A DNA stretch of 64,000 nucleotides from Oenococcus kitaharae DSM 17330 (lineage in GTDB: Bacteria; Bacillota; Bacilli; Lactobacillales; Lactobacillaceae), in contig NZ_CM001398.1 in the NCBI RefSeq assembly GCF_000241055.1, forward strand, positions 655,190-719,189, given 5' to 3'. The notes below the pieces were generated by a model. The model ran no database searches, had not been told where the DNA came from, and was given only the letters and a program-made list of their open reading frames with translations. The position numbers were made by a program, and so were the translations under genes. Positions 3,234 to 64,000 of the stretch are shown piece by piece; the stretch's first letter is position 1, and every line of letters starts with the position of its first letter.

Positions 3234-3267
3234 AAAAGGTATTTTAAATTAAGAAGATAAGATTCCC

Positions 3268-3437
3268 AATTAATAGCACCCCCTAGGTGATCCTAGGACA
3301 GTCCATGCAGTCTTTCCACATGGCCCAACAAAGATCAAATGACAGGTTCAATCTTGTTTCGGCGGCGATCCTTACAATTGCATCAACGCTTTTGTCTGCT
3401 CAGCAATTTTCGTGATAACCGCGCCTCTATTTTATTG
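3268..3437 (-). ncRNA. Lysine riboswitch (L-box) aptamer
   Basis: Read on the minus strand, the leader shows the L-box order. P1 is CAATAAAATAG pairing with CTATTAATTG. The conserved AGAGGCGCGG follows, then a stem AATTGC/GCAATT, the core GATCGCCGCCGAAAC, a stem CAAGAT/ATCTTTG, then GGGCCATG with CATGG and ACTGTC, the hairpin CCTAGG/CCTAGG and the closing GGGGGTGCTAT. These match lysine riboswitch core elements and not a T-box, whose GGGTGGNACCGCG is absent. It precedes a terminator and an amino-acid importer gene. Bound lysine should stabilise P1 and stop transcription. Confidence 0.88.
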
Positions 3438-56813: not shown

Positions 56814-56901
56814 TCGCTGTTGGACTGTTTTAATTGTGTTTTTCGATTAGTGAGCGTTTAAAGATGCTGCAGGAGCGAGTTTTTCCTCTAAAATAGACTT
56901 G

Positions 56902-57135
56902 ATGAAAAGATCCCGACAGCAAGAAATTAGAAAACAAATCCGTAAAGAGCAGCGCAAGCCCAGTCCAGAGGAAGTCATCGAGGCCCGTTCACGAATTGCG
57001 CGTCAGCGGATTGATGACGAAAACGCGAAAAATGGTAAAAAGAGCCGTTTTGATTATCTGACGATTACGATGGCCGTCCTAATGGCTGCGATCACTTTGA
57101 TCGGTGTTGTGATCGTCCTTTTGGATATAATGTAA
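56902..57135 (+). CDS. Small single-pass membrane protein, function unknown
   Basis: 77 residues: a highly charged N-terminal helix (RSRQQEIRKQIRKEQRK, EEVIEARSRIARQRIDDE) and one C-terminal membrane helix (ITMAVLMAAITLIGVVIVLL), so the bulk is cytosolic with the tail in the membrane. ATG 56902 directly follows a TTG; no strong ribosome-binding site is seen, which lowers confidence. I do not recognise the family, though small basic membrane proteins like this are common in lactic acid bacteria. Confidence 0.6.
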   Translation: MKRSRQQEIRKQIRKEQRKPSPEEVIEARSRIARQRIDDENAKNGKKSRFDYLTITMAVLMAAITLIGVVIVLLDIM

Positions 57136-57157: not shown

Positions 57158-57186
57158 TAGACAAAGTATTTTTATCCTGCTATGAT
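57158..57186 (+). promoter_or_regulatory. Promoter of the pyrimidine operon
   Basis: TAGACA, 17-bp spacer, TATGAT. The predicted start near 57193 gives a leader of about 205 bases before pyrB. Confidence 0.75.
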
Positions 57187-57235
57187 ATTTGGCAATGTGA
57201 ATTTTTAAAAGTCACAGGCGAAGGAGCAGGAGCAG

Positions 57236-57367
57236 ATGAACAGTGTTCACGCACAATTCTATGCAAAGATCAGTGTTTGCAGGCTCGCTTTTGCTTTTCA
57301 TGTTTCTGTTGATAATTTAATTTTTAATCATTATTCAGTGATCAATACCTCAATTATTTCTAATTGA
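57236..57367 (+). CDS. Pyrimidine operon leader peptide (43 codons), attenuation ORF
   Basis: ATG at 57236 follows GAAGGAGCAGGAGCAG, an excellent ribosome-binding site. The frame begins MNSVHAQFYAKISV, runs 43 codons and ends with TGA at 57365-57367, inside the 3' arm of the terminator before pyrB. The stretch 57288-57340 is U-rich (30 of 53). This is the layout of the enterobacterial pyrBI leader, where a ribosome close behind polymerase melts the hairpin when UTP is low and polymerase pauses. The peptide itself probably has no function. No PyrR-binding loop was found, which favours this mechanism. Confidence 0.75.
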   Translation: MNSVHAQFYAKISVCRLAFAFHVSVDNLIFNHYSVINTSIISN

Positions 57368-57379
57368 GGTATTTTTTTT
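57344..57379 (+). terminator. pyr operon attenuator
   Basis: Perfect 13-bp stem AATACCTCAATTA/TAATTGAGGTATT with loop TTTC, followed by eight T. It ends 20 bases before the pyrB start codon and overlaps the leader-ORF stop codon. Confidence 0.92.
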
Positions 57380-57399
57380 GCCAAAATTCGGAGGAGAAC

Positions 57400-58323
57400 A
57401 TGGCTAATCTTTTTGTAAACATCAATGATTTATCCAATCAGGATCTCTTATCGATGATCCATCAGGCTTTATTATTCAAGCACGGCGACTTAATTCCCGC
57501 CGCCGAAAAACAAGTCGTGGCTAATATTTTTTTTGAAAACTCGACCCGCACCGCCAGCAGTTTTCAAATGGCAGAAATCAAATTAGGTTTTCCACGAATT
57601 GTGATTGACCCTAGCCGTTCTTCGGCAGCAAAAGGCGAAAGCCTTTCAGATACTTTAAAGACTTTAAAAGCGATTGGCGTCGGCATTGTCGTGATCAGGC
57701 ATAGTCTGCGCGGCTGGTATGAACCTTTTTACGAATCGGCTGGTAAAACACTGCCTAAGCTTGTGAATGCTGGTGATGGCAACGGTCAGCACCCATCGCA
57801 GAGTCTGCTTGATTTAATGACGATCAGCGAATATTTCGGACGTTTCGCCGGCTTGAAGATTCGAATTATCGGTGATATTTATCACTCTCGTGTCGCTCGC
57901 TCCAATGCCGAAATTTTAAAGCGGCTCGGTGCTGAGGTCACCTTTTCCGGCCCGCGTGATTGGTGTGATGTGTCATTAACACAATACGGACAGTACGTCG
58001 ATTTGGACGATGGGCTTGGACAACAGGATGTTGTGATGCTGTTGCGTGTCCAGCACGAGCGTCTGTCCGCTGATGAGAATTCGACTTTTACGCCGGCAGC
58101 TTATCATGTGCAGTTCGGCCTCACACAGGCACGTTATGACTGTTTGAAAAACGATGCGATTATTATGCATCCGGCACCAGTCAATCGCGGCGTGGAAATC
58201 GATAGCGATTTGGTCGAGGCACCCAAGTCACGCATTTTCCAGCAGATGGCAAACGGTGTTTTCGCCCGCATGGCCATCCTCAATTACTTGAATAGCCCAT
58301 TAACGACAAGGGAGCTCGTCTAA
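57400..58323 (+). CDS. pyrB: Aspartate carbamoyltransferase catalytic chain PyrB
   Basis: Second step of pyrimidine synthesis: carbamoyl phosphate plus aspartate. The 307 residues show the carbamoyl-phosphate motif FFENSTRTASSF, the loop PSRSSAAKGES, GQHPSQSLLDL and the aspartate-site HPAPVNRGVEI. ATG 57400 follows GGAGGAG by three bases and starts at the natural N-terminus (MANLFVN); the frame extends into the attenuator without support. It works as a trimer in Gram-positives without a regulatory chain (no pyrI here). Confidence 0.96.
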   Translation: MANLFVNINDLSNQDLLSMIHQALLFKHGDLIPAAEKQVVANIFFENSTRTASSFQMAEIKLGFPRIVIDPSRSSAAKGESLSDTLKTLKAIGVGIVVIRHSLRGWYEPFYESAGKTLPKLVNAGDGNGQHPSQSLLDLMTISEYFGRFAGLKIRIIGDIYHSRVARSNAEILKRLGAEVTFSGPRDWCDVSLTQYGQYVDLDDGLGQQDVVMLLRVQHERLSADENSTFTPAAYHVQFGLTQARYDCLKNDAIIMHPAPVNRGVEIDSDLVEAPKSRIFQQMANGVFARMAILNYLNSPLTTRELV

Positions 58324-58324
58324 T

Positions 58325-59620
58325 ATGCCGACGATTTTAATTAAAAATGCGCGCGTTCTGGCTGGCGAAAACCGGCTGATCAAACAGGATGTGCTGATCA
58401 AAAATACTTATATCAAACAGGTCGCAGATACGATTACCGTTTCCGCTGATCAAGTGATAGACGCTGAAAATGCTTTGTTGCTGCCGGGACTGATTGATGT
58501 GCATGTGCATTTTAGGGAGCCTGGTTTTGCAGAAAAAGAGACCGTGGTCAGCGGCTCGAAAGCAGCCGCGAGAGGCGGTTTTACAACGGTTCTAGCCATG
58601 CCGAATGTCAATCCGGTTGTTGATAATCCTGATGTTTTGCGCCAAATGCTGGCTTTAAACCAGCGTGACGGGATTGTGAAAATCCATCAGTATGCGGCCA
58701 TCTCCGCTGGACTGGATTCAGATCATGTTGACGATTTAGACGCTTTGGCCCAAGCCGGCGCCGTTGCCTTTACGAATGATGGCAAGGGAGTGCAGACGGC
58801 CGATACAATGTATGAAGCGATGAAAGCTGCGGCTCGGTTGGGTAAAGTGCTTGTGGCGCATGTCGAAGACGATTCTCTGATTCACGGCGGTGTCATGAAC
58901 GCTGGTCCAGCAGCCGATGCTTTAGGATTGCCGGGCGCTAATAAGTTAAGCGAAAGCTCACAGCTAGCGCGTGATCTTGTGATTGCTCAGGCGACTGGCG
59001 TGCGTTATCACGTGGCGCATGTCTCGACAGCTGAGAGTGTCGCATTGATTCGGATTGCAAAAAAAGAAGGCGTTCATGTGACGGCCGAAGTTTCCCCACA
59101 TCATCTGCTTTTAGACGACGGCATGATCACAAAAGACGATGCCATGATGAAAATGAATCCACCGCTGCGTTCGCCGCATGATAGGGCTGCTTTGATTGCT
59201 GGCCTATTAGACGGCACAATCGACATGGTCGCAACAGACCACGCACCACATACGGCTGCCGAAAAAGCACAGGGGATGTTAAAGGCACCGAATGGCGTGA
59301 CTGGAATTGAGACGAGTTTTCAGCTTTTATACACACATTTTGTCAAAAGCGGTGTCATGTCTCTACGGCGTTTGCTGCAAGTCATGAATCAGGCACCCGC
59401 AGCAGCTTTTTCTTTGTCTGATGCGGCTGTGAAAGTGGCAGCGGGGCAAAAAGCAGATCTGGCTTTGTTTGATATTGATCATCCCCATGTCATTTCTAAA
59501 GACGAATTTGCCTCAAAAGCTAGTAACAGTCCCTTTATCGGCTGGGAAATTTATGGACAGACACAAGCAACTTGGGTCAATGGGCGGCAAGTGTATGCAG
59601 CGGAAAGGAGCCAAGCATGA
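58325..59620 (+). CDS. pyrC: Dihydroorotase PyrC (class I)
   Basis: Zinc amidohydrolase closing carbamoyl aspartate to dihydroorotate. The 431 residues contain the metal site DVHVHFREPGF (HxH) near 58-68, later metal histidines in VAHVEDD and YHVAHVSTAES, and the catalytic aspartate in MVATDHAPHT. It begins one base after the pyrB stop. It overlaps the carA start by 4 bases. Confidence 0.96.
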   Translation: MPTILIKNARVLAGENRLIKQDVLIKNTYIKQVADTITVSADQVIDAENALLLPGLIDVHVHFREPGFAEKETVVSGSKAAARGGFTTVLAMPNVNPVVDNPDVLRQMLALNQRDGIVKIHQYAAISAGLDSDHVDDLDALAQAGAVAFTNDGKGVQTADTMYEAMKAAARLGKVLVAHVEDDSLIHGGVMNAGPAADALGLPGANKLSESSQLARDLVIAQATGVRYHVAHVSTAESVALIRIAKKEGVHVTAEVSPHHLLLDDGMITKDDAMMKMNPPLRSPHDRAALIAGLLDGTIDMVATDHAPHTAAEKAQGMLKAPNGVTGIETSFQLLYTHFVKSGVMSLRRLLQVMNQAPAAAFSLSDAAVKVAAGQKADLALFDIDHPHVISKDEFASKASNSPFIGWEIYGQTQATWVNGRQVYAAERSQA

Positions 59621-60708
59621 CAAAACGCTATTTAGTTTTGGAAAACGGATCAATTTATGAGGGCGAAGCCTTTGGTACGACTGGCACTTCAGTCGGCGAA
59701 TTGGTTTTCAATACGGGCATGACCGGCTATCAGGAAACGATTACGGATTTGTCTTATGCCAATCAGATGATCGTCTTTACTTATCCTTTGATCGGTAATT
59801 ATGGCGTTAACCGTGATGATTCAGAAAGCCTGCGCCCGGCTGCTGCAGCAATTGTTGTGCATGAAATTGCTCGCCGTCCCAGCAATTGGCGTATGCAGAT
59901 TTCGCTAACCGAATGGGCTGAAAAGATGAATCTGCCCGGGATTACGGGTGTCGATACGCGGGCTCTTACGAGAGAATTGCGTGATCAAGGCGTGATGAAA
60001 GCGGCTTTAGTTGACCAAGTAGCGCCGGACACAGTCGCTTGGCTGCGTGGGCAAGCACTGCCGACAGATCAGGTTCAACAGGTGACTGTTCGCAGCGGTT
60101 ACCAAAATCCGAATGTTGGGGTCACGATTGCACTGATTGATTTCGGTTTGAAAAATTCCATTCTGCGTTCTCTAGCAGCGCGGCAGTGCAATGTGGTTGT
60201 TTTCCCGGCCGATGTTGATGCCAAGACAGTACTAGAAGTGGATCCTGACGGCATCATGCTGTCAAACGGCCCTGGCGATCCGCAATCAGTCAGTTACGCC
60301 ATTCCAACCATTCAGGCCTTGCAAAAAGTGAAACCACTTTTCGGTATCTGCCTAGGACACCAATTGTTTGCCATGGCTAACGGCGCAAAAACTTTCAAAA
60401 TGAAATTCGGCCATCGCGGTTTTAACCATGCTGTGCGATCAATCGACAGCCCGAGACTGGCCTTCACTTCACAGAATCATGGTTATGCAGTTGATGAGGC
60501 CTCGCTGGCTGGAACTGACTTGATCGTGACTTACCGTGAAGTCAATGATGGGACTGTGGAAGGGCTGAAGTCGACTGTTTATCCGGCTTTCTCAGTCCAA
60601 TTCCATCCAGACGCTGCGCCTGGCCCGCATGATGCGGATACGATTTTTGATGATTTCTTGCGGCTGATCGTGGCTGACAAAAGGAGGAAAAATGCCCAAA
60701 CGGTCTGA
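59617..60708 (+). CDS. carA: Carbamoyl-phosphate synthase small subunit CarA
   Basis: Glutaminase subunit that supplies ammonia to CarB. The N-terminal domain ([25 protein letters not shown], quoted as [16 protein letters not shown]) is followed by a class I glutamine amidotransferase domain with SNGPGDP, nucleophile Cys245 in GICLGHQ, and [14 protein letters not shown] carrying the catalytic His. ATG 59617 follows AAAGGAG and overlaps pyrC by ATGA; the open frame starts 45 bases earlier without support. 363 residues. It overlaps carB by 17 bases. Confidence 0.96.
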
Positions 60709-63700
60709 TATTCATAAAATACTGGTCATCGGTTCCGGACCGATTGTGATTGGCCAAGCGGCTGAATTTGATTATTCGGGCACGCAAGCCAGTCTGTCTT
60801 TGCGTGAAGAAGGTTATTCCGTGGTACTGGTTAATTCAAATCCGGCCACGATTATGACTGATGCTGAGACAGCCGATAAGGTTTATATCGAACCGCTGAC
60901 GCTGGAATTTGTTGAAAACGTCTTGAGAAAAGAACGACCGGATGCTATTTTAGCGACACTTGGCGGTCAGACTGGCTTGAATCTGGCTAAAGATTTATCC
61001 GAAGATGGTATCTTAGACGAATTGCATATCGAATTGCTGGGCACGAAATTGTCAGCGATTGAGCAGGCTGAAGACCGAGAAAAGTTCAAGGAACTCATGG
61101 AAGAACTGCATGAGCCGATTCCAAAATCACAGACAGCGACGACATTGACTGAAGCTTTGAATTTTGCTGAACACCAGGGTTATCCGGTCATTGTCCGCCC
61201 GGCTTATACCTTGGGTGGTACTGGCGGCGGCATTGCTAATAATGAAATGGAACTTCGCCAGATTGCTGAAAATGGGCTGGAATTATCGCCAGTGACACAG
61301 ATCCTCGTTGAAGAATCGATCGCAGGCTATAAAGAAATCGAATTCGAAGTGATGCGCGATGCTAATGATAATGCCTTGGCTGTGGCTTCCATGGAAAACC
61401 TGGATCCCGTCGGCATTCATACAGGTGACTCGATTGTCCTAGCACCAGTGCAGACTTTGTCGGACAAAGAATATCAAATGCTGCGTGATGCGTCATTGAA
61501 AATTATTAGAGCCTTGAAGATTCAGGGTGGTGCCAACGTCCAACTAGCTTTGAACCCGAATAGTTTTGCCTACGATGTGATTGAAGTGAATCCACGTGTT
61601 TCTAGGTCATCAGCTCTAGCTTCTAAAGCCACAGGTTATCCAATTGCAAAAATGGCTGCTAAAATTGCGGTCGGCTTGACCTTAGATGAAATTATCAATC
61701 CTGTCACCGGCAGCAGTAAAGCAGCTTTTGAACCGGCCTTGGATTATGTCGTGGTGAAAATTCCGCGCTGGCCTTTTGACAAATTCACGACAGCTGATCG
61801 TCGTTTGGGCACACAGATGAAAGCCACTGGTGAAGTCATGGCTATCGGCCGCAATATCGAAATGGCTTTGATGAAGGCTGTTCGTTCTTTGGAAATTGGT
61901 GCCTTAGCTTTAGACGACGTGCGTTTTCTGGAATGGCCAACGGAAAAACTACTGGATGCTCTCTGGCCGGCACGCGATGATCGCCTATTTATGATTGCCG
62001 ACTTATTGCGCCGCGGTGTCAGCGTTGAGGCCATTCATGATAAAAGCGGTATTGATTATTTCTTCTTGGACAAAATTGCGCATCTAGTCGAGATCGAAGA
62101 AGCTTTAAAACAGCATCCTTTCGATCAGGATTATTTGAAAATGGCTAAGGAAAACGGTTTTCCGGACGCCGCCATCGCGCGTTACTGGCACAGCGACGAA
62201 CAAAAAATCCGTGCTTTTCGAGAACAGCAGCACCTATTGCCTACTTATAAAATGGTCGATACCGCAGCCGGCGAGTTCGTTTCTAAAACGCCTTATTATT
62301 ATTCGACCTATGAACGCGAAAACGAATCCAAATCTATCGGGCCTAAAAGCGTACTTGTCTTGGGTTCCGGGCCGATTCGTATCGGACAAGGCGTGGAATT
62401 TGATTACGCGACGGTTCATTCTGTCAAAGCGATTCAAAAAGCTGGCTACAAGGCAATTGTCATCAACTCAAATCCTGAGACTGTTTCGACAGATTTTTCT
62501 ATCTCTGACAAGCTGTATTTTGAACCGATCACACTAGAAGATGTTTTGAATATTGTGGATCTGGAAAAGCCGCTCGGTGTGATTGTCCAATTCGGTGGCC
62601 AGACTGCAATTAATTTAGCAGCACCTTTGCAGGCAGCTGGCGTTAGGATCTTGGGGACAGCTGTTTCCGATATTAATCGTGCTGAAGACCGTGAGGATTT
62701 TGGCGAGGTTATTCAACAATTACAGTTGCCTCAGCCGGTCGGGGAAACGGCCAGTTCAGTTGAGGAAGCCTTGGCTGCTGCTGAACAAGTTGGTTATCCG
62801 ATTTTGATCAGGCCTTCTTATGTCTTAGGCGGACGTGCGATGGAAATCGTGGCTAACGCCGATGAACTGGCTAAATATATGCATCGTGCCGTAAAAGTTT
62901 CCCACGACCATCCGGTGTTGATTGATTCCTATCTGACTGGTAAAGAAGCTGAAGTCGATGTGATTAGTGACGGCCAGACCGTTGTAATTCCGGGGATTAT
63001 GGAACACATTGAGCGGGCTGGTGTTCATTCTGGTGATTCCATGTCTGTTTACCCGCCACAATATCTCAGCCAAAATGTCCAAGACCAAATCGTCAAAGCC
63101 TCGATTGAAATAGCTAAGTCTCTAAAAACAGTCGGATTGATGAACGTCCAATTTGTGATTCATGATGAAAAAGCCTATATTATCGAAGCCAATCCGCGCG
63201 CGTCACGTACGGTGCCTTTTATCTCCAAAGTGACTCAGATCCCGCTGGCATAGTTAGCCACGAGTGTGATTTTGGGTGCTTCGTTGAAAAAATTAGGTTT
63301 CCATGAAGGCCTGGCAGAAAAAAGTCATCTTGTCCATGTCAAAGCACCGATTTTCTCATTTTCCAAACTGCCAAAAGTCGACTCGTCACTGGGACCGGAA
63401 ATGAAGTCGACTGGTGAAGTGATGGGAACTGACCGTACGTTGTCAAAAGCCCTCTATAAAGCATTCGTTGCCTCTGGTTTCCACCTGCCTAGTCATGGTA
63501 ATGTGCTCTTCACGATTGCCGACCGCGACAAAAAAGAGGCTTTGTCCTTGGCGGAACGCTTTAGTCGTCTTGGCTATATGCTGTGGGCAACAGCTGGCAC
63601 GGCTGCTTATCTGAGAAGCCATCAGCTGCGTGTCAAAGAATTGGGTAAAATTTCCGATCAAGCCGATAATCCGGTGGCAGCTATGCGCAGCGGCCAATTG

Positions 63701-63889
63701 CAGTTAGTCGTCAATACTTTGGAGACAGATGAATTGCTGGAACCGGATGGCCGTCAAATTCGCTCGGCCGCGATTGAAAACGCCGTCCCTTTGTTCACGT
63801 CGCTGGATACGGTCGCAGCCTTCTTGCAGGTTTTGGAAAGCCGCTCCTTTGAAGTGGACGCGATCGAAGAAAGGCAGCTGCAGCTATGA
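60692..63889 (+). pseudogene. carB: Carbamoyl-phosphate synthase large subunit CarB, interrupted by an amber codon
   Basis: The frame would encode 1065 residues, the normal CarB length, but TAG at 63251-63253 (codon 854) splits it into 853 and about 211 residues in the same frame. The site is inside the conserved VTQIPLA-x-LATS segment, where relatives have a residue such as Gln or Lys. CAG or AAG to TAG is one base change. Loss removes the end of the second ATP-grasp domain and the allosteric domain. All other features are intact: [17 protein letters not shown], the second GGQTAIN. It is either a recent null allele or a sequencing error. A GTG at 63266 could restart only a useless fragment. 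Confidence 0.9.
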
Positions 63890-64000
63890 CAGGCACGACT
63901 GATAAATTATTTATCGCTTTGGATTTCACGGATGGCAGCCAGGCTTTGGCTTTTTTGAAACCTTTCGAAGATCAGGATATCCGGCCGGCTGTCAAAGTGG
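63886..64000 (+). CDS. pyrF: Orotidine 5'-phosphate decarboxylase PyrF, 5' part only
   Basis: The window ends 38 codons into this gene. The ATG overlaps the carB stop (ATGA). The sequence KLFIALDFTDGSQALAFL matches the first strand and catalytic ALD(F/V) of OMP decarboxylase, and PAVKV lies where KVG of the second strand is expected. It is the next pyrimidine gene in a usual operon order. Confidence 0.85.
   Translation, partial: MTGTTDKLFIALDFTDGSQALAFLKPFEDQDIRPAVKV

Follow-up and report, generated by a model that had tools for sequence, protein, structure and literature searches.

How the pyrimidine genes of Oenococcus kitaharae DSM 17330 are controlled is the question raised by the region ahead of pyrB, where a small open reading frame (ORF) runs into a transcription terminator. 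The window, i.e. the whole stretch of 64,000 nucleotides analysed here, contains this region together with the first genes of the pyr operon. We consider it probable that the pyrB leader is a translation-coupled transcription attenuator for the pyrimidine genes, working like the E. coli pyrBI leader. Comparison between species gives good support to translation-coupled attenuation and points most probably to a conserved attenuator that depends on translation, and UTP is the likely signal by analogy with the E. coli system. The features on which this reading is built are the following.

57158..57186, + strand: promoter with -35 box TAGACA, a 17-nt spacer and an extended -10 box TGC-TATGAT (10/12 match)
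57195..57200, + strand: ATG-TGA start-stop, exactly 8 nt past the -10 box (RTG-TGA at this place in 5/5 43-codon leaders)
57221..57226, + strand: Shine-Dalgarno (SD) sequence AAGGAG, 9 nt 5' of the leader ATG, as read from the sequence
57236..57367, + strand: leader ORF of 43 codons, ATG to TGA, MNSVHAQFYAKISVCRLAFAFHVSVDNLIFNHYSVINTSIISN, ending within the terminator
57254..57256, + strand: codon 7 of the leader ORF, CAA (Gln), found also in the 12 other pyrimidine leaders of the genus
57284..57343, + strand: U-rich stretch (32/60 T), the proposed pause region, from the T count against a coding background
57344..57373, + strand: intrinsic terminator hairpin of 13 bp with a loop of 4, followed by T6 at 57374-57379
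57400..58323, + strand: pyrB, leading the operon, named by homology as the catalytic chain of aspartate carbamoyltransferase
58325..63889, + strand: pyrC, carA and carB, in which the operon continues

The coordinates bear out the parts of the leader named in the preliminary description, namely the promoter, the 43-codon ORF with its ribosome-binding site, the U-rich stretch and a 13-bp terminator whose 3' arm contains the stop codon. The two arms (57344-57356 and 57361-57373) are 100% complementary, the leader stop TGA lies at 57365-57367, inside the 3' arm, and the distance from the end of the T run to the pyrB ATG is 20 nt. The U content reaches a maximum of 30 T per 53 nt, the 60 nt with 32 T being those that directly precede the hairpin. 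The ATG-TGA start-stop probably lies at the extreme 5' end of the RNA.

The PyrB proteins of the window and of O. kitaharae CRBO2176 share 99% identity, and pyrF, pyrE, pyrD and a gene of the major facilitator superfamily (MFS) follow carB beyond the window. The genes that we take to be pyrC, car, pyrF and pyrD were named from sequence likeness, without a family search. The kitaharae MFS protein is over the cut-off of PF07690, its nearest NCBIfam model (aromatic acid/H+ symport) being below cut-off. Some further observations concern the operon and its surroundings. The carB gene of the window strain (60692-63889) is broken by an in-frame TAG at 63251-63253, while that of CRBO2176 is uninterrupted and encodes 1065 aa; a second, arginine-linked carbamoyl-phosphate synthase of O. 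kitaharae is reported in PMC3250461. Over 57341-64000 and its continuation in L143, kitaharae and G003 share 90% identity in CarA and only 67% in PyrE, G003 PyrE being slightly nearer to that of G006 (69%) than to that of kitaharae (67%); the operon looks mosaic, and recombination within it is possible. Just upstream of pyrB lies a small protein gene, DUF4044 (PF13253), at 56899-57135, and similar small genes are found upstream of pyrB in G003, G006 and G002. Far from the operon, at 3266-3437 on the minus strand of the window, there is a lysine riboswitch (87.8 bits).

The regulator to be expected in this bacterial family is PyrR. Of 60 genomes, 51 scored over the cut-off of the NCBIfam PyrR model, which corresponds to 51/53 of the relatives outside Oenococcus, where G015 was counted as positive from two pieces only, with an internal stop. 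The genomes without PyrR over the cut-off were all seven Oenococcus, two of them (G001 and G004) incomplete at 65-68%, together with G023 and G049. The genome of the window strain comprises 1.84 Mb in two contigs, and PF00156 gives ten phosphoribosyltransferase places in it; the two most PyrR-like of these enzymes are over the cut-off as hypoxanthine phosphoribosyltransferases and far below it as PyrR. On the RNA side, the Rfam PyrR family (RF00515) gave 21.8 bits in the pyrB leader (57198-57379, E 1.7), as compared with a cut-off of 54, a match that we take as chance, and in the sister leaders it scored 17.8 bits against 54 in one and was unlisted in another. None of the four submitted Oenococcus loci had a PyrR site at the cut-off, whereas two of the three submitted loci from outside the genus did (L015 and L017, not L014), and no Rfam family reaches its gathering score in the pyrB leader. 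The genus Oenococcus has thus apparently lost PyrR, the usual regulator of pyrimidine genes, a result in line with the earlier proposal that this leader acts without PyrR and contains no site for it.

The promoter and hairpin of the leader were found by DNA search in 5/7 Oenococcus genomes, which represent three lineages: the two kitaharae strains, G003, and the near-identical G006 and G002. Neither pyrB nor this leader was found in the incomplete genomes G001 and G004. The promoter is laid out in CRBO2176, G003, G006 and G002 as in the window. The position of the leader differs between the species. In kitaharae it precedes pyrB, and pyrD and the MFS gene behind it are separated by about 17 nt that contain no leader, whereas in G003, G006 and G002 the promoter and then the hairpin are found about 9 kb past pyrB, with pyrD on one side and the MFS transporter gene on the other. 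Since the leader adjoins the pyr operon in either position, the module stays with the pyrimidine genes. Of the preliminary reading as a whole, a conserved leader ORF without PyrR and without a strong predicted antiterminator has stood, but its place ahead of pyrB does not extend to the other species, where the leader precedes the MFS gene. The PyrB tree gives no branching order among kitaharae, G003 and the G006/G002 pair, and hence no choice of the ancestral position; the best 80 of 120 PyrB-matching loci contain one Oenococcus, CRBO2176.

All five leaders have 43 codons; their start precedes the hairpin by 108 nt, their TGA stands at hairpin offset 21, and their maximal U content is 30-32 T per 53 nt. 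The ORF body, on the other hand, is near-random: its DNA identity between lineages is 0.38-0.41, where wrong offsets give 0.22-0.44, and the peptides have 5-7 of 36 residues in common. The distance from the -10 box to the ORF start varies (49, 38 and 44 nt in the three lineages), and the start codon is ATG in kitaharae and TTG in the two other lineages, each with an SD-like stretch. The differences by codon position in the ORF body are patternless (e.g. 24/23/18), so that there is no classic coding signature; this fits selection on the frame and not on the peptide, and is by itself no proof of translation. On this comparison, evolution has kept the length, frame, stop position and U content of the ORF and not its peptide, which matches the prediction of ribosome-coupled attenuation. 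The alignment across Oenococcus suggested earlier therefore gave conservation of length, frame, stop and U-richness in three lineages, but neither a third-base pattern nor a conserved peptide. The terminator stretch (57341-57382) is 97-100% identical to those of G002, G003 and G006 over 38 nt, loop included, and identical between kitaharae and G003. Such identity exceeds what a terminator needs and counts against the attenuator reading; the hairpins of the permease leaders described below, unlike this one, vary internally.

That the arrangement is more than chance is indicated by a 268-kb sample of the window genome, which comprised the window, a 12-kb tail of L143 and further sampled stretches. 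Ten terminators in this sample precede an SD-started ORF of at least 100 aa, and the pyrB terminator is alone among them in having a small SD-led ORF that ends in the hairpin. One further match was the end of a 114-codon frame, and the leader of the uracil permease, which is among the ten, was uncounted since its 12-codon ORF has no SD. At least 30 T per 53 nt occurred in 0 of 11,195 such segments from eight genes of the window, the maximum being 28. Dinucleotide shuffles left the leader frame open in 17-24% of cases (24% for the pyrB leader of the window), so that an open frame alone is weak evidence; the product of the open-frame probabilities of the three lineages is 0.008, a product from which the kitaharae value should be left out because the kitaharae leader prompted the search. 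It is the exact length, the frame and the shared stop, and not the openness, that rule out a chance ORF. When the G003 leader was used as query against 301 Lactobacillaceae genomes, with two candidates scored per genome, E values below 1e-10 were obtained in five, all Oenococcus. Seven weaker matches (E 3e-5 to 7e-4), which involved differing short parts of the query, are taken as chance, and a plasmid search with the leader sequence gave no match.

Folding predictions indicate that the terminator dominates in 5/5 leaders, with mean pair probabilities of 0.89-0.95. When the 3' arm was made unavailable, the 5' arm was predicted in these leaders to find upstream partners for 0 to 7 of its 13 bases, the highest values being those of one kitaharae strain (7 bases) and G003 (6). 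No convincing strong competitor of the terminator was seen in these predictions, in agreement with the earlier statement that the leader contains no antiterminator. Termination accordingly looks like the predicted default, and something must keep the hairpin open if pyrB is to be transcribed.

The genus also has two further leader types that were absent from the preliminary description. The uracil permease gene is preceded in 5/5 genomes by a promoter, a GTG-started ORF of 12 codons and a terminator; the permease was named by NF007995 from a partial stretch scoring 418 bits against a cut-off of 477. The 12-codon ORF ends at the hairpin foot in all five, with TGA replacing TAA in G002, and reads Arg-Lys-Gln in 5/5, while the codons that follow diverge much even between G002 and G006. 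The kitaharae permease leader has 19/60 T and is thus not U-rich, which counts against the attenuator reading. The other type is a short pyrB leader in G003, G006 and G002, whose ORF starts with ATGATG, runs for 16 or 24 codons counting from the second ATG and terminates inside the leader's own hairpin; this frame says little, because any of the three frames, judged by eye, would meet a stop there. Searches for the short leader in G000 and G005 gave no match better than E 0.36, a match in G004 lay by eye within an unrelated gene, and inspection by eye of the stretch ahead of upp gave no comparable leader. A separate observation concerns the stretch AATTTAAATGTTCGTGTTTT.RTGRTTAATAATCTCYTCGTGGAGG immediately before a PF00860 permease gene, at about 1395-1455 of L155, L156 and L157 (L157 reverse-complemented), where three species show strong conservation.

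Two features are common to the three types. An ATG or GTG stands exactly 8 nt past the -10 box in 13/13 leaders (the second ATG in the short pyrB type), as compared with 26/780 promoter-like sites in the 268-kb sample, two such leaders included. Codon 7 is CAA in 13/13, counted from the second ATG in the short pyrB type, and codon 6 is AAA in 11/13, the exceptions being both kitaharae 43-codon leaders with GCA. In the 43-codon type the RTG behind the -10 box is followed by TGA, and the CAA belongs to the SD-led ORF. These counts are not independent, since strains and near-identical species were tallied apart and the types may share descent. An extra Lys-Gln site at about 52765 on the minus strand of the window lies inside a gene and is taken as chance. 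From the invariant 8-nt spacing, the permease and short pyrB leaders probably begin translation at or beside the RNA 5' end, i.e. they would be leaderless. Taken together, the Oenococcus pyrimidine genes would have at least three such leaders: the 43-codon type, the 12-codon type of the permease, and the short pyrB type of the other species.

The conserved codons 6-7 (Lys-Gln) invite the explanation that the leader is a peptide sensor, in which glutamine supply or a nascent-chain effect slows the ribosome on these codons or directly behind them, the stall position decides on termination, and the U-richness is secondary. The recurrence of CAA in 13/13 and AAA in 11/13 leaders of three types is what this would predict, as is the constancy of Arg-Lys-Gln in the five permease leaders while the downstream codons differ. 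One Gln codon is however a poor sensor, the kitaharae 43-codon leader reads Ala-Gln, and a stalled ribosome would find no strong antiterminator to favour; shared descent of the three types could explain the CAA, and AAACAA may instead act at the RNA level or enhance translation. We regard such a sensor as unlikely. Amino-acid attenuation by a leader peptide was rejected, the peptides having no codon run for an end product and the folds no strong antiterminator. It is quite unlikely, too, that nucleotide pools pick the start site near the RTG, so that only some transcripts are translated from the 5' end. The exact 8-nt spacing in 13/13 leaders against the background of 26/780 would suit control at initiation, which nevertheless leaves unexplained a conserved 43-codon ORF with its own SD. 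E. coli pyrBI has a second control of this kind, reiterative transcription at a start with a U run; the inferred start region here (CAATGTGA or similar) has no U run beside it, as would be needed, and reiterative transcription was rejected. Reiterative transcription is described for carAB, and pyrBI is named as well, in PMC6245113.

The idea that the hairpin is the target of some unrelated protein or small RNA, the leader ORF being incidental, draws on the 38-nt identity of the hairpin between kitaharae and G003, which the ORF body does not share. It would leave the fixed length, frame and stop of the ORF without explanation, no Rfam family reaches its gathering score, and we find it improbable. 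PyrR-type attenuation is usual in the relatives, which have PyrR as well as PyrR sites (2/3 of the loci outside Oenococcus), but with PyrR below the cut-off in 7/7 Oenococcus, the two most PyrR-like enzymes of the window genome being hypoxanthine phosphoribosyltransferases, and with 21.8 and 17.8 bits against 54 and no site at cut-off in four loci, it is disfavoured as extremely improbable.

For the translation-coupled attenuator that we prefer, the sequence of events may be envisaged as follows. RNA polymerase would start at about 57192-57195, as judged from the -10 box, and by default the leader RNA is predicted to fold the terminator, so that transcription ends before pyrB. When UTP is short, the polymerase would slow in the U-rich stretch, the ribosome on the 43-codon ORF would catch up and cover the 5' arm of the hairpin when near the stop codon, and the hairpin would thus be kept open and the polymerase read into pyrB. 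It is tempting to speculate further, although we hold this to be doubtful, that the loss of PyrR was followed by a rewiring through one leader family of common origin (5' start codon 8 nt past the -10 box, a small ORF with Lys-Gln at codons 6-7, terminator), with loading at the start-stop and a move of the whole module between the MFS gene and pyrB. The start-stop of the 43-codon type, a 5' start codon with UGA directly behind it, might in that case bring a ribosome onto the nascent RNA in time to catch the polymerase within so short a leader.

Whether a ribosome can catch the polymerase is a matter of how the two are coupled. According to PMC7858274, the polymerase of Bacillus subtilis runs ahead of the ribosome, a behaviour that may be common among bacteria. 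The distance from stop codon to terminator, used as a proxy there, has a median of 17.5 nt in the sample of the window genome, with 17/42 at 12 nt or less; for E. coli, a small sample of 9 cases gave a median of 35 nt. The short distances suggest that tight coupling of ribosome and polymerase is not the default. Loose default coupling is compatible with a switch that works only with a slowed polymerase, yet it is a main reason for doubt.

If our reading is true, a genus-wide attenuator that needs no protein and requires the ribosome to catch the polymerase would offer a natural Gram-positive test of the runaway-polymerase view, and would illustrate how the place of the lost regulator PyrR was filled. 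The leader placed ahead of a transporter gene in some species and ahead of pyrB in another is a ready-made swap experiment, and pyrimidine control in the wine-associated Oenococcus becomes testable. Among the matches listed from the open-access literature, searched by titles and the beginnings of abstracts, there is no report of a pyr leader or its control in Oenococcus. Within the scope of that search, the pyrBI-like leader arrangement is unreported in this bacterial branch, the kind being already known from E. coli.

The leaders can be compared with several known systems. In the rph-pyrE attenuator of E. coli, the coding frame ends close to the terminator foot, as does that of the 12-codon permease leader, but the E. 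coli frame is a full upstream gene whereas the Oenococcus ORF is tiny and probably leaderless. The PyrR attenuators of Firmicutes (RF00515) serve the same operon and likewise have a terminator in the leader, and they differ in the PyrR gene and PyrR site, neither of which was found at cut-off in Oenococcus. Leader-peptide attenuators for His, predicted in some Firmicutes according to PMC9413887, are similar as ribosome-dependent attenuation in Gram-positives; they have His codon runs and an antiterminator, in contrast to the Oenococcus leader with no such run and no strong antiterminator. The closest parallel is the attenuator of E. coli pyrBI, which serves to sense UTP; its mechanism is described in PMC4824070. 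The pyrBI leader ORF (pyrL) has 44 codons against 43, the terminator lies inside the ORF, and the position just before pyrB is the same. The distance from start to hairpin is by eye about 88 nt in E. coli and 108 nt in Oenococcus, the pyrL stop lies beyond the terminator and the Oenococcus stop in its 3' arm, and the U-rich part of the Oenococcus leader is by eye longer, while its RNA has no initial U run for reiterative transcription. The resemblance appears to carry no sign of common descent, and the likeness would be one of arrangement.
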